Assembly: GCA_003661385.1 (NCBI GenBank)
Contig: QMWA01000025.1
Location: forward strand, 1-13,854
Direction of reading: 5' to 3'
DNA length: 13,854 nucleotides
Source: Thermoproteota archaeon
GTDB lineage: Archaea; Korarchaeota; Korarchaeia; B14-G2
Below, piece by piece: positions 2 through 6,384 of the stretch (the stretch's first letter is position 1; each line of letters starts with the position of its first letter). The notes under the pieces were generated by a model. That model made no database searches. It saw nothing but the letters and a program-made list of their open reading frames with translations, and had not been told where the DNA came from. Both the position numbers and the translations under genes were made by a program.

Positions 2-964
2 CTGGCAGAGAAATCAGAAGCTCAGGAGAGGGCTATGCAATTGAAGCAAGAGATCAGCGAGCTAGATGCACAGCTGAACAAAGTTCTTATGACGCTCTCT
101 AGCGCAGACAGGAAGCTTGCTAAGGTGAAGGCTACCCTAGACAGAGTGAGAGCGAAGAGAGAGCTCTTACAAGAGAAGCTAAGGAAGATAGAGAGTCAAA
201 TAGACATGCTAAGCTCTAAAGAGCGGGAGCTATCTGCGGAAGCTGAAGATCTCAGAAGGGAAATCCAGAGGATAGCTGAGAGCTTACCAGACAGCATAAA
301 GCCTCTAGAACCTGTACCTAAGGAGGAAGATATCTTAAGAGAGCTAGCTAAGGTAGAGGTTTCGTTGGAAGCTATTGGAGATGTAATACCTTCCGCAGAT
401 GAGATGTACATGAAGGCTCTTGAAGAATACAACAAAACAAGGGAGAACATAGAGAAGATACAGGAAAGGAAGCTAAGGCTCGAAGCTGAGCTAAACAAGA
501 GGATAGCAACATGGAAGAAGACGCTTAGGGCGCTCATTAGAGAAGTTGACTCCCGATATCAGGAGCTGCTAAGGGAGATAGGTGCTACTGGAAGGATAAT
601 ACTGCACCTAGAAGATAACCCTGAGAGCAGCTGGCTTGAGCTCTCAGCTAAGTTTCATGAATCTAGTGAACGAGAGCTGAAGAAGGCAAAGGCAAGTGGA
701 GGAGAAAAGGCGCTAGCTACTCTATCCTTTCTGATAGCTCTGCAAGAGTGCAGCCAATCTCCAGTAAAGGCTATAGATGAGTTTGATGCTCATCTAGATC
801 CAATGAATAAAGCTAGAATCCTCGAAGTCATATACTCAGCTATCTCGAGAAAGGATATCCTGGGGCAGTACTTTCTAGTGACTCCGAGCTCACTGCCAGC
901 AATAGATTGGAGCAAGAAGAATGTCCAAGTGATTGCAGTCAATTACTGCGGTGTCCAGAAGTGA
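2..964 (+). CDS. SMC-family ATPase, C-terminal part (gene begins before the window)
   Basis: The reading frame is open from base 2, so the 5' part of the gene lies outside the window. The first roughly 180 visible residues are heptad-like, charged and leucine-rich, as expected for the returning coiled-coil arm of an SMC protein. The C-terminal head half follows: an ABC signature KASGGEKALATLSFLIALQ (about nt 686-742), a Walker B/D-loop AIDEFDAHLDPMNKAR (about nt 770-817), then a YFLVTPSSLP switch region. SMC proteins are ATP-driven DNA-entrapping or loop-extruding machines. The DEFDAHLD Walker B resembles the DEFD form of Smc5/6 and Rad50-like or coalescin-type proteins more than the DEVDAALD of bacterial Smc; this comparison is from memory. 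The stop overlaps the GTG of the next gene (GTGA), which points to translational coupling. I am sure of the SMC/Rad50 superfamily and less sure of the subfamily. Confidence 0.88.
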   Translation: MAEKSEAQERAMQLKQEISELDAQLNKVLMTLSSADRKLAKVKATLDRVRAKRELLQEKLRKIESQIDMLSSKERELSAEAEDLRREIQRIAESLPDSIKPLEPVPKEEDILRELAKVEVSLEAIGDVIPSADEMYMKALEEYNKTRENIEKIQERKLRLEAELNKRIATWKKTLRALIREVDSRYQELLREIGATGRIILHLEDNPESSWLELSAKFHESSERELKKAKASGGEKALATLSFLIALQECSQSPVKAIDEFDAHLDPMNKARILEVIYSAISRKDILGQYFLVTPSSLPAIDWSKKNVQVIAVNYCGVQK

Positions 965-2121
965 GGAAGGCAAGTTTCATATCGCTGTTAGCTAAGCTGA
1001 CAGGAGAACGTGGCTCACTTACCTTAAGGATAATAGATGTACTTGACCAGATGCCAGAGGGTATCTCAATAACTCAGTTATCATCTAAGGTAGGCTCCCC
1101 ACAACCAAGCGTATCTCGTGCTATTAAGAGGCTAATAGAAGTAGGGCTTGTAGAGGTTAAGCGAGCTAGAGACCGAGGGAAAAGCTTCACGATAGTTAGG
1201 CTAACCAATGCAGGAGAAACCCTCGCGCTCATACTAAGCTATGCTGACCTACTGTTTTCACTCTACGAAAAAGGAGAGAACCCGATCCTTCACCATGTTA
1301 AGCACTTAGATCTCAATGAAGATGTAGAGGAGTATAAGCAGCACCTAGATCGCATTACCCTAAAGGGGAGGTTTGCTCTTGAAAATCTCATCTCTCTTGC
1401 TGCTCGTATTCTAAGGCATGAGATAGATCCATTCGACTTGGATTTAGACTCGTACATAGAGCTGCTCAAGGAGTACCATGACATTTGGAAGAGCAAGGAA
1501 GATCTCTTAATGGACGCTGAAGCGCTTCTAAAAGCAGTAAAGGTGCTTAAAGCTCAGAGGGAGAGGCTGTTTCATGAACTCAAGCTACCAAGAGGCTTTG
1601 CAAGTGTTATAGAGGAGACGGGAGAGAACAAGCTTGGCAAGAAGCTACTTTCTCATATGTCCCCCGTCTTTACACCAAATACACCAATTTATCAAGGTCT
1701 AGCTAAGGCTACAGCTCAGCTGTGGCTAGCTCCTACAGCACACGTGCCAAAAAAGCCTAAGACAGCAGAGAGAGCAAGCATAGAATTAGATCTAGAGGAT
1801 GCAAGGAGGATGGGTGTAGTAGACTCCAAGAAGTTCGAGGAGATGCTAGCTAGTCTGCTAACTGAACTAAGGGACAAGACTTCGTCCAGCCCAATTGAGT
1901 ATTCTGAGTGGATTCTGGCTCCTACGTTCATAGAAACTGTCAACAGAGCTTATTTAACAAGCTTTCTCGTCAAGAGGGGTTTAGCTACTCTTAGGCCAGG
2001 TGGAGACGGCAAGCTCCTGATATCTCCTGGCTCAGCTGAGAAGCCTCGTGTGGTTCTGACATCAGTAACCTATGAGCTATGGGTTGAGGAGATGCTTAGA
2101 TGCAAGAAAATAAGAAAGTAG
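961..2121 (+). CDS. Winged-helix protein with ScpA/kleisin-like domain, SMC partner
   Basis: I chose the GTG at 961 because it overlaps the SMC stop in a GTGA and has a GGTG Shine-Dalgarno motif about 8 nt upstream. The frame also allows a TTG at 907, 54 nt inside smc. From the 961 start (386 aa), residues about 15-75 form a MarR/TrmB-like winged helix (GISITQLSSKVGSPQPSVSR, a recognition helix, and a wing KRARDRGKSF). About residues 135-205 contain LENLISLAARILRHEIDPFD and a later helix LLMDAEALLKAVKVLKAQ. These align by eye with the ScpA N-terminal pattern (LDLLLHLI..IDIYDI..., then an A-rich helix LVMAATLLSIKSR). The last roughly 60 residues could be the small C-terminal winged helix that binds an SMC head. 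Known: ScpA kleisins bridge SMC heads and bind KITE proteins. Inferred: this is the kleisin of the neighbouring SMC. The N-terminal DNA-binding-type domain is unusual for a kleisin. Confidence 0.62.
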   Translation: MRKASFISLLAKLTGERGSLTLRIIDVLDQMPEGISITQLSSKVGSPQPSVSRAIKRLIEVGLVEVKRARDRGKSFTIVRLTNAGETLALILSYADLLFSLYEKGENPILHHVKHLDLNEDVEEYKQHLDRITLKGRFALENLISLAARILRHEIDPFDLDLDSYIELLKEYHDIWKSKEDLLMDAEALLKAVKVLKAQRERLFHELKLPRGFASVIEETGENKLGKKLLSHMSPVFTPNTPIYQGLAKATAQLWLAPTAHVPKKPKTAERASIELDLEDARRMGVVDSKKFEEMLASLLTELRDKTSSSPIEYSEWILAPTFIETVNRAYLTSFLVKRGLATLRPGGDGKLLISPGSAEKPRVVLTSVTYELWVEEMLRCKKIRK

Positions 2122-2621
2122 TGGCTATGCTCTCCTCAGAAAGAGGTAGGAAGAGGGGGATCCCTGTCAGCGAAATCATAGCTATATATGGAGAGAGTTG
2201 GAGAGAAAAGCTAGCTGAGCTGGATGAAGCTCTCCAAAAACTAGGCTTAAGGATTGTAGCTGTAAATGGATACAAAAGAGTAGCCGACTGGAATGCGCTA
2301 AAGCCCAGCACAAGGCTCTTTCTTGTCCTTCAAGCCTCTCATGGTACATCTACTTTAACTCTCGCAGAGCTTGGAGCTCTAGCCATAATAGCGGCGCACA
2401 TAATAGAGGCAGGAGGGAAGATAAGCGAGGATAGAGCTATAACAATTCTCAGGAAGAGGCATACATACAGTACTGCAAAATCTATCATAGATAGTCTGAT
2501 CAGAGAAGGATACCTAGTCAAGTCAGGTGGCTATCTAGAGATAGGGGGGAGGCTAGTAGCAGAAGTAGACCTGGAAAAGTTCTTCGTGGATGTGCTAAGA
2601 GAAAGCAGCATACTACAATGA
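2100..2621 (+). CDS. KITE-type tandem winged-helix protein (ScpB / MAGE-Nse3-like)
   Basis: This is a 173-residue protein starting at an ATG with a strong GAGGAG Shine-Dalgarno motif 8 nt upstream. It overlaps the end of the kleisin-like gene by 22 nt. The first half (RGIPVSEIIAIYG... LGLRIVAVNGYKRV) has the shape of the first ScpB or MAGE winged helix, which ends in a 'giel-ev--yrl' strand. The second half (ELGALAIIAAHIIEAGGKIS, then a helix and YLVKSGGYLEIGGR) fits the second winged helix. The AHIIEAGGKISEDRA stretch resembles the MAGE/Nse3 core 'I..I..nGgkvsE..L'. KITE proteins are dimeric kleisin-binding subunits of SMC complexes. Fold and gene order (smc, kleisin, KITE) support each other. 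It could be nearer ScpB than Nse3; no ScpB-specific motif settles this. The gene ends 3 nt before the convergent cgi121 stop. Confidence 0.62.
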   Translation: MQENKKVVAMLSSERGRKRGIPVSEIIAIYGESWREKLAELDEALQKLGLRIVAVNGYKRVADWNALKPSTRLFLVLQASHGTSTLTLAELGALAIIAAHIIEAGGKISEDRAITILRKRHTYSTAKSIIDSLIREGYLVKSGGYLEIGGRLVAEVDLEKFFVDVLRESSILQ

Positions 2622-2624
2622 AGG

Positions 2625-3197
2625 CTACTTACGTAGGTCAAGTAATGCTATTTTTTCAAGCACCCCGAGCTCCAGTGCCTTTATTAGCCCCTTCCCCCTG
2701 TCAAAGACCTCTAACTTCACACTAAAGACCTTAGATAGCTTCTTGACATCACACTGCTCTGGTACAATGTCCTCTAAGATCTCCCCTCCATGTACACGTA
2801 TACACCTCCTTATACTTTCCAAGACTTTCTCTCCATCTCCATATGCTATGCATACAAACTCTCTAGAGGTAATTCCTTCCAGAATGCTCTTAACGTCTCT
2901 TATCTGCTTAACTCCAAAGTAGTATCTAAGAAACTCCATATTCGGGTCTCTAAGCTTACCCCCCCTTCTAAGCGATCTAAGACAGTGGATAAATGCTGAT
3001 AACACGTGTCTAGTAGAGAAGGCGAATTCAGCTGGAAGAACCACATATAAACTGCTGTGCTTATCAAGCTCGCTGCTTACCTCCTTAAGAACCTCATGAA
3101 GTTCTCTAGCTTCCCTATATACTATTCTAACGGCAATCAGCTCAAACTCTACTGCTTCAACATAGCTTACTAAGAACTCAGGCTTAATGACTACCAA
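2625..3197 (-). CDS. cgi121: KEOPS complex subunit Cgi121
   Basis: This 190-residue protein matches the Cgi121/TPRKB family. It has the STRHVLSAFIHCLRSLRRGG helix, the N-x-E-FLRYYFGVKQI segment (the family's 'n.eiLly.sg.rQI'), the VCIAYGD strand, and a C-terminus VLEKIALLDLRK close to the usual 'vlEkiAlleL'. Cgi121 is a KEOPS subunit that binds Bud32 and the tRNA 3' CCA end, helping Kae1 place t6A at position 37 of tRNAs that read ANN codons. The start is a TTG only 14 nt after the 3' end of tRNA-Arg(CCT). No promoter is visible between them, so co-transcription and release by tRNA 3' processing is likely (inference). It converges with the KITE gene with a 3-nt gap. Some neighbouring residues could be lost if a later start is used, but no better start is seen. 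Confidence 0.87.
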   Translation of the reverse strand: MVVIKPEFLVSYVEAVEFELIAVRIVYREARELHEVLKEVSSELDKHSSLYVVLPAEFAFSTRHVLSAFIHCLRSLRRGGKLRDPNMEFLRYYFGVKQIRDVKSILEGITSREFVCIAYGDGEKVLESIRRCIRVHGGEILEDIVPEQCDVKKLSKVFSVKLEVFDRGKGLIKALELGVLEKIALLDLRK

Positions 3198-4446: not shown

Positions 4447-6384
4447 ATGAGGCTAGCTCGAGTTCTTGATAAGTGCTGGGTAGCTTGTGTCCTCACCTTA
4501 TTATCTTCATCTGCTAACTATGCTCTATTAGCGGCTTTTCAGCCTACAGCAGCTGATATACGTGATGTCCCAACTCTAAGGCAGTCTATAGTCTTAGTCG
4601 ACTCGAAGCTAACTTACCTGACTGCAGCTCCTCTGGCAGCATGCTTCTCATCCATAGTAGTATATGTCAGCTCTGAATCCAGCTTGTCTAGGATTAATCG
4701 CTTAGCTGCCTTGTCTAATAGGATTATCCTCGATGCAAGAGGGTTTAGCCCAGCTGATCTAGTCATTTTATCTGCAAGAAAAGGTTGGCTCTCTGCGGGG
4801 GCTCTCATAGTTTCTGATGCATCCGACCTAGAGGCTTGCATGGAGGCGAGCCGCTATGCTGTGCAGCGCAGGGCACCACTACTGCCTGTTTCTGCGCTTG
4901 ATTCTGTAGACAACGTCTTTGACTCCATTCTTCCCAGGGAACTGGTATTATTCGCAAGTAACCTCACCTTAATAAGGGAGCTGTCATCGAAGTACCCTTG
5001 CATAGTTGCAAAGCCCCCTCATTCGTCTGATAACATAACTTATGTAGTTACTTCCCCTCGAGATAGTGATGCAGCATTCCTCGCCTCTCAAATAGCCTCG
5101 ACACGGCTAGCTGAATACATCCCCCTTGACAAGCTCCAAGCTTTCTTGGAGTCTCATTTCTCATGCTCCCCTGTGGTCGCTGTCCTCTGCACTATGCAGG
5201 AGTTAAAGGAGAAGAACCTAGTATATGCTGTAAATGAGGCTGTGATAAGGTTAGATGACGATCCATACATAGATGTGCCTACTGGCTTCTTGGCTGCTGC
5301 TACTATAGACGACATATCGTACATGATAGCTGCCTCTCTTATCTACCCGGAGATATTCTTGAAGATCCCTAACATGTTGCTTCTCACAATATCCGATGCT
5401 GAACCAGTAGCTCTTAAGCTCATCAGGATAGCTGCTCTCGCGCACGTTAATTCAACGCTGCTGACCGAGGTGGAAGGTAATCTCACAAAGGCTGCTGCAG
5501 TAAAGTGGCTATCACAGCCTAACTCGCTCATCTACATAGGGATGCACGGCTCTCCCTACTCTCTAGCTCCAAGCCCATATGCGTCTCCATATCTGATAAG
5601 CAGCAGCGACTTGCCCCAGTTACCCCCCGCCATAGTATTCACCTTATCTTGTTCAACAGCTCGACTAGATTCTAAGACGGATTTGTCAAGATACCTACCT
5701 GCAGCATTCCTCTCTCAGGGAGCTGTCGCGTATATTGGAGCGATGAGAGTCGAGTATGTGGCTGAAGAGCAAAGTACTGCACTACCTGACCTGATCCTAT
5801 ATCTGCTACTGCATGCCGGAGCTCCCCTCGGAGAGGTTGTCAGAGTACTGAATAATTTCCATATATCAAGTATGTTGGGGCATTCTCCGCCAGAAAAGTC
5901 GGCATACACTGTCTTATTTGGTGATCCAGCTTTACATGTGCCCTGCTCCAGCTCTCACTATGTTAAGGTCACGGAGGCAAGGTTTACTGAGGGTGATGCG
6001 TGGCTGAGGCTGAGGGTTCTAACTTTCACCCCATCAGTGTATACTGTGCTCAAAGTGCCTATAGAGGAGTATAGCCCAAGGCCTAAGGTAAAGATAACGG
6101 TCAATAGAAGGGTTATAGACATGGTTTCTCCACTATTTTTAGATAAAACACCACAGGGCAACGTGCTCCACCTATATGCTACCCTAAAGGTCACACTTGT
6201 GGTCGGCGACTTTAGCCCTGGGGACATAATTGAGGTGGAGGCTTATGTTAAGCCTTCTTTACCTCCTCTAGTCAAGCTGCTTCTCATAGCCTCCACAGCT
6301 ACAGTGGTTTACCTAGTGGCTAGGCGGCAATTCAGAGCTAGACATCGATCTAGCTCCAAGCCTCACGTGGAAGCTGCTACTTGA
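4447..6384 (+). CDS. Membrane-anchored gingipain-like (C25, clan CD) cysteine peptidase
   Basis: This is a 645-residue protein with an N-terminal hydrophobic segment (VACVLTLLSSSANYALLAAF), probably a signal peptide, and a C-terminal membrane helix (LVKLLLIASTATVVYLVA) followed by a basic RRQFRARHR tail. That arrangement predicts an extracellular enzyme held by a C-terminal anchor. The catalytic core looks like peptidase family C25: LIYIGMHGSP with His367, IVFTLSCSTA with Cys402, FLSQGAVAYIGAM, and a later VLFGDPALHV strand. The His-Cys spacing of 35 residues and the 'GDPAL' ending fit C25-like proteins. The N-terminal roughly 300 residues are unassigned, and a beta-rich domain of about 130 residues lies between the peptidase and the anchor. 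No substrate can be inferred. The ATG at 4447 has no clear Shine-Dalgarno motif, so it may be read from a leaderless or short-leader mRNA. Confidence 0.75.
   Translation: MRLARVLDKCWVACVLTLLSSSANYALLAAFQPTAADIRDVPTLRQSIVLVDSKLTYLTAAPLAACFSSIVVYVSSESSLSRINRLAALSNRIILDARGFSPADLVILSARKGWLSAGALIVSDASDLEACMEASRYAVQRRAPLLPVSALDSVDNVFDSILPRELVLFASNLTLIRELSSKYPCIVAKPPHSSDNITYVVTSPRDSDAAFLASQIASTRLAEYIPLDKLQAFLESHFSCSPVVAVLCTMQELKEKNLVYAVNEAVIRLDDDPYIDVPTGFLAAATIDDISYMIAASLIYPEIFLKIPNMLLLTISDAEPVALKLIRIAALAHVNSTLLTEVEGNLTKAAAVKWLSQPNSLIYIGMHGSPYSLAPSPYASPYLISSSDLPQLPPAIVFTLSCSTARLDSKTDLSRYLPAAFLSQGAVAYIGAMRVEYVAEEQSTALPDLILYLLLHAGAPLGEVVRVLNNFHISSMLGHSPPEKSAYTVLFGDPALHVPCSSSHYVKVTEARFTEGDAWLRLRVLTFTPSVYTVLKVPIEEYSPRPKVKITVNRRVIDMVSPLFLDKTPQGNVLHLYATLKVTLVVGDFSPGDIIEVEAYVKPSLPPLVKLLLIASTATVVYLVARRQFRARHRSSSKPHVEAAT

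Follow-up and report, generated by a model that had tools for sequence, protein, structure and literature searches.

Gene content of the operon and its genomic setting

The analysed stretch of DNA (hereafter, the window) comprises 13,854 nucleotides and represents contig C25 of a korarchaeal assembly of 1.74 Mb in 206 contigs, with an estimated completeness of 91% and an estimated contamination of 1.9%. Positions 2-2621 hold three same-strand, head-to-tail, overlapping ORFs, encoding an SMC protein (smcA), a kleisin-like protein, and a tandem winged-helix protein of the KITE type (Table 1), which confirms the three-gene set proposed in the initial annotation. The first ORF is open at its 5' end, where the start of the contig truncates the SMC gene. 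The kleisin start called by the ORF program (TTG 907) is probably too early; GTG 961 was preferred because it overlaps the SMC stop codon (GTGA). The gene order recurs in other genomes, and the three-gene arrangement is therefore not a chance one.

Table 1. Coordinates of the operon genes, predicted domains, and motifs in the window
Feature	Position	Strand	Basis
smcA, C-terminal part (320 aa of a 933-aa Smc5/6-type SMC)	2..964	+	SMC_N 1.8e-10, overlap with C149
ABC signature SGGEK	695..709	+	read from sequence
Walker B DEFDAHLD	776..799	+	read from sequence
Kleisin, Nse4-like, 386 aa from GTG 961	961..2121	+	profile, predicted fold
Extra N-terminal MarR/PadR-type winged helix (residues 1-107)	961..1281	+	MarR_2 3.3e-8; Z ~8 to MarR/PadR folds
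Kleisin N-terminal helical domain (residues 126-207), predicted SMC-neck binder	1336..1581	+	pLDDT >90, DPF motif
Kleisin C-terminal winged helix (residues 289-359), predicted SMC-head cap	1825..2037	+	pLDDT >90, Nse4 profile match
KITE subunit, Nse1/MAGE type, 173 aa	2100..2621	+	profile, predicted fold
KITE winged helix A (residues 1-77)	2100..2330	+	predicted structure
KITE winged helix B (residues 88-172)	2361..2615	+	predicted structure

The neighbours of the operon in the window were assigned by Pfam to purA, rpiA, dnaG, and a release-factor family gene. The KITE gene is immediately followed by a minus-strand ORF (2625-3197) with a weak CGI-121 (KEOPS Cgi121) match, and a 645-aa protein (4447-6384) with a C25-type peptidase match has a hydrophobic C-terminus and is possibly membrane-anchored.

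The N-terminal 715 aa of smcA were located on contig C149 (locus L011, 2-2146, minus strand), which overlaps the window by 307 bp with 5 mismatches. The full smc gene was obtained in this way. The joined protein of 933 aa is a reconstruction, since the gene is split between two contigs that disagree at 5 bases of this overlap. The divergent gene upstream of smcA on C149 looks TIP49/RuvB-like (AAA; by eye from the sequence), and the Mre11-Rad50 pair of the host is located on contig C72, away from smcA.

Relationships of the three subunits

The two heads of smcA are separated by 552 residues, including a mid-coil domain of about 130 aa (residues about 420-560), which is a presumptive hinge. This domain had no Pfam match, SMC_hinge included, and no convincing relatives in 29 genomes of the phylum. 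Nor were convincing relatives of it found in 121 genomes of the phylum to which one Bathyarchaeota locus belongs; the N-terminal half of smcA was matched in 59 of them, and the matches stop short of the domain. The CxxC motif (zinc hook of Rad50) was not found in smcA. The coalescin-like character suggested for the SMC in the initial annotation was not upheld, as the two halves scored 60.5 and 26.2 bits with the coalescin/ASRP model NF045487, for which the cut-off is 300.

The best solved relatives of the smcA N-terminal half were yeast and human Smc6 (3e-17 and 2e-13), followed by canonical Smc (7e-12) and Rad50 (3e-5). The profile of the short SMCs described below had Smc5 as its best solved relative (7.5e-62), with Rad50 at 1e-20. 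In some searches, canonical archaeal Smc ranked close behind, or ahead of, Smc5/Smc6. The head tree was built from 40 sequences, with reference heads taken from PDB alignments (human Smc6, Smc5, and Smc2 were among the queries used for fetching them); the reference letters in the tree are those of the PDB chains. Smc5, Smc6, the short SMCs, smcA, and smcB were split from canonical SMC with a UFBoot of 90 when both heads were used, and with 96 and 90 in two subsets; for single heads, the value was 95 on the C-head and only 41 on the N-head. The AU test rejected grouping smcA with canonical SMC (p = 0.016) and with smcB (p = 0.006), and did not reject its grouping with short SMCs (0.23), Smc5 (0.13), or Rad50 (0.15). 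By sequence, the smcA head is thus on the Smc5/Smc6 side, apart from canonical SMC. Together with the KITE fold described below, this agrees with the side to which the initial annotation had assigned both proteins. The pairing of smcA with Smc6 reached a UFBoot of 100 with the two heads combined and with the N-head alone; it is not claimed here, because the C-head does not recover it and the placements with short SMCs and Smc5 are unrejected. A firm grouping with Rad50 beside an upstream mre11 gene had been named as an outcome that would speak against the SMC reading. The gene next to the 5' end looks TIP49-like and is not mre11. As to the phylogeny, the tree that joins smcA to Rad50 falls short of the best one, at an AU p of 0.15.

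In the kleisin, Pfam detected MarR_2 (3.3e-8) and, weakly, Nse4_C (0.0035). When a family alignment of 36 sequences was used as a profile against PDB, the four best solved relatives were all Nse4 (2.4e-5 to 3.3e-4), and the C- and N-domains of ScpA followed at E 0.15-0.24 (the N-domain, 6ivh, being weak at 0.24). The ScpA-like N-terminal pattern noted in the initial annotation corresponds to a helical segment modelled with pLDDT >90, in which a DPF motif is conserved across the family alignment. The mean pLDDT of the whole model was 74, exceeding 90 in the N-terminal helical domain and C-terminal winged helix; confidence was low over the first 120 residues, where the MarR-type winged-helix blocks had values of 45-80. 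The best Foldseek match of the predicted fold was Nse4 (4.3e-5), and the Z scores (VIA) were 10.5 for Nse4 and 10.2 for the C-terminal winged helix of ScpA. Whole-chain alignments to Nse4 show a large rmsd because the kleisin domains are loosely linked. The MarR-type winged helix is missing from the aligned relatives. By profile and predicted fold, the protein is nearest to Nse4.

The KITE protein matched no Pfam family; it has no cysteine and therefore no RING. A 7-member profile searched against 177,635 PDB sequences placed Nse3/MAGE and Nse1 in the top five positions, each at an E-value of only 0.013-0.033, and a 31-member profile ranked MAGE first (0.0057) and Nse1 third (0.64). The model is a tandem winged-helix structure (pLDDT 91, pTM 0.80) with Nse1 as the best Foldseek match (4.8e-5, TM 0.70; Z 13.1 over 154 residues), and MukE and JetB come next, as expected for KITE proteins. 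The profile E-values are weak and their ranking is consistent, and together with the predicted fold they indicate that the protein is nearest to Nse1 and Nse3/MAGE. The structural likenesses to kleisins and to KITE proteins, whose lack would have spoken against the initial annotation, were thus found for the second and third proteins, respectively.

Distribution of related operons and the short-SMC version

The phylum comparison set included 29 genomes, one of them a closed genome of 1.6 Mb. Its members include Methanodesulfokora washburnensis, a species placed in Korarchaeota by PMC7055376, and the phylum of the host is taken to be Korarchaeota on this ground. The KITE profile matched in 14 of these, twice in the host, and in several phylum genomes the operon set adjoins an lhr-type helicase gene (named from sequence). 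The kleisin alone, used as a query for genome contigs, retrieved zero relatives; therefore, contigs were scanned with a short-SMC alignment, yielding 182 relatives, from which 79 loci were kept. A kleisin was present at 64 and a KITE at 61 of these, and almost all of the partner genes come straight after the SMC gene. The relatives belong to Korarchaeota, Bathyarchaeia/Bathyarchaeota, Nitrososphaeria, Methanomethylicia, Thermofilales, Hadarchaeota/Hadesarchaea, Hecatellales, and others. The ANME-1/Syntrophoarchaeum-type loci (L093-L095, L097, L101, L103, L106, and L111) carry a short SMC with no recognisable kleisin or KITE neighbours.

The short SMCs of the relatives are 555-696 aa long, and the stretch between their heads is 179-276 residues (n = 77) vs. 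381-393 in the hinge-bearing canonical SMCs of the phylum, which therefore leaves no room for a canonical hinge and coils; a small tip domain is possible. The host also has such a set, on contig C8 (L012, 4015-8808), with an SMC of 628 aa, an overlapping kleisin-like gene of 241 aa that no NCBIfam model matched, and, two genes away, a 171-aa KITE. The host assembly thus contains two SMC and two KITE genes split over two operons, one of each per operon. Neither ScpA (PF02616, E ≤ 1) nor SMC_hinge (Pfam) had any match in this 91% complete assembly, which leaves the two operons of Smc5/6 type as the sole kleisin-SMC sets recognised there. The window copy is a paralogue of the widespread archaeal short-SMC complex, odd in its mid-coil domain and extra winged helix.

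Canonical operons (L061-L064) of other phylum genomes encode a hinge-bearing SMC of 764-777 aa, an ScpA-like protein of 174-184 aa, and an ScpB-like protein of 158-184 aa, and some genomes hold both the short-SMC set and the canonical smc-scpA-scpB operon (L061, L064). The SMC_hinge match was absent in 17 of the 26 genomes with a short SMC, several of which are incomplete. Upstream of the short SMC, many loci carry a divergent gene (about 230 aa; L048 5900-6592, L055 2490-3170) that has no Pfam match and may be functionally linked to this SMC. In one phylum genome, a Roadblock/LC7 protein gene is situated between the SMC and kleisin genes (L048 8841-9209). For Thermofilum adornatum, chromosome-arm pairing has been described, and the species is said to be without SMC homologues (PMC11946384). 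The operon is at most a possible explanation of this pairing; the KITE is patchy (7 of 17) in the family of a Thermofilales genome.

Proposed complex, rival explanations, and comparison with known systems

The sequences, the predicted folds, the head phylogeny, and the order of the genes make it very probable that the three genes specify an SMC complex with kleisin and KITE, its subunits being of the Smc5/6 type. A rival reading, that of a fast-evolving copy of ordinary Smc-ScpAB pulled to Smc5/6 by long branches, draws on the many long branches in the head tree, the ScpA-like N-terminal pattern kept in the kleisin, and the high rank of canonical archaeal Smc in some searches. It is nevertheless improbable, given that the AU test rejected smcA with canonical SMC, that the kleisin is nearest to Nse4 and not ScpA, and that the KITE fold is nearest to Nse1/MAGE. 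Moreover, this KITE type occurs together with ScpA-like matches in four phylum genomes, so the two represent separate systems. In another rival reading, the operon would serve plasmid or phage defence and work like Wadjet or MukBEF. A winged helix N-terminal to the kleisin is the layout of MukF and JetA, JetC and LmuB gave weak matches, and the KITE fold also matched MukE and JetB. However, the Pfam results for the window include no JetD-like nuclease (the 5' side on C149 is seen in part), the neighbours are purA, rpiA, dnaG, and a release-factor family gene, the kleisin and KITE had no defence-model match apart from a generic winged helix, and the related operon recurs across archaeal lineages; we find a defence system improbable.

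The window could also be a contig misbinned from another archaeon, in which case the two operon types would not share one cell. Its tetranucleotide correlation with the rest of the genome is low (r 0.55; 20 of the 21 other sampled contigs fit better, at 0.55-0.86), that of C149, a short contig, is lower still (r 0.48), and the assembly is fragmented into 206 contigs. This is an unlikely explanation, since the only DnaG detected in the assembly is encoded in the window and has its best relatives in same-phylum genomes (51 and 49%), and the estimated contamination is 1.9%.

For the Smc5/6-type complex that we prefer, assembly and function are inferred as follows. Two SMC proteins would pair via the mid-coil domain and, with ATP, via their heads. 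The kleisin would bind the neck of one SMC with its N-terminal helical domain and cap the head of the other with its C-terminal winged helix, while the Nse1-like KITE would sit on the kleisin linker and press DNA onto the engaged heads. ATP hydrolysis would cycle the ring, which would hold DNA or move along it. As in MukF, the additional MarR-type winged helix may join two complexes; alternatively, it may provide a further contact with DNA. A role in chromosome maintenance or repair is most likely, given the housekeeping nature of the neighbouring genes and the lack of a detected canonical SMC in the assembly. It may be suggested, tentatively and with more doubt than confidence, that the archaeal operon family goes back to the complex from which eukaryotic Smc5/6 arose, all three subunits having been inherited together; the window would then hold a form with a hinge, and its SMC would lie closer to Smc6 than to the short archaeal SMCs. 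Archaea with no detectable canonical SMC gain a candidate machine, as illustrated by the short-SMC genomes with no SMC_hinge match, and a three-part machine of this kind that does without a canonical hinge would help to test the purpose of that domain. Part of these findings may be covered by a 2024 preprint (van Hooff and others) that reportedly treats the prokaryotic roots of SMC complexes.

In published surveys, Crenarchaeota are said to be without condensin (PMC7055376, PMC10769869). The crenarchaeal frame in which the initial annotation set the operon does not apply, the host being korarchaeal. Archaeal SMC complexes are also said to work mostly without KITE (PMC7055376). The adjacent smc, scpA, and scpB genes reported for three Korarchaeota (PMC7055376) probably correspond to the canonical operons that the present analysis found in other genera. 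According to the relevant passage of PMC9389158 (citing Yoshinaga and Inagaki 2021), an archaeal 'SMC5/6-related' SMC has already been published; like the SMCs here, it has archaeal heads grouping with Smc5 and Smc6. Compared by description only, that class probably includes the SMCs seen here. It is described in that passage at the SMC protein level, and no kleisin or KITE partner was found described there, nor in the published papers searched. The idea of an undescribed archaeal SMC complex may hold for the partners but not for the SMC class, and the complex is not confined to the host.

Among other SMC-superfamily systems, Rad50 differs in its zinc hook and mre11 neighbour, neither of which smcA has. 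Coalescin/ASRP proteins (ClsN, Sph) are likewise archaeal members of the superfamily, but NF045487 scored far below its cut-off, and the window SMC is accompanied by kleisin and KITE genes. MukBEF and Wadjet JetABC share the winged helix before the kleisin N-terminal domain (modelled here with low confidence) and a KITE partner, whereas the window KITE fold is nearer to Nse1, JetC matches are only weak, and no JetD was recognised among the Pfam results for the window. The Smc-ScpAB condensin has the same three-part SMC-kleisin-KITE logic, and the operon order is that of the canonical operons (L061-L064); however, the window kleisin and KITE are Nse-type, and no Pfam ScpA, ScpB, or SMC_hinge match was obtained. 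Compared with the Smc5/6 core (Smc5, Smc6, Nse4, Nse1, Nse3), which has two SMCs and two KITEs, the window operon has one of each; its KITE lacks the RING of Nse1, its kleisin bears an extra winged helix, and no Nse2, Nse5, or Nse6 was recognised in it. The two have in common Smc5/6-group heads, an Nse4-type kleisin, and a tandem winged-helix subunit of the Nse1/MAGE type, and the archaeal operon with its Nse4- and Nse1-like partners is a plausible prokaryotic relative of Smc5/6 at the three-subunit level.
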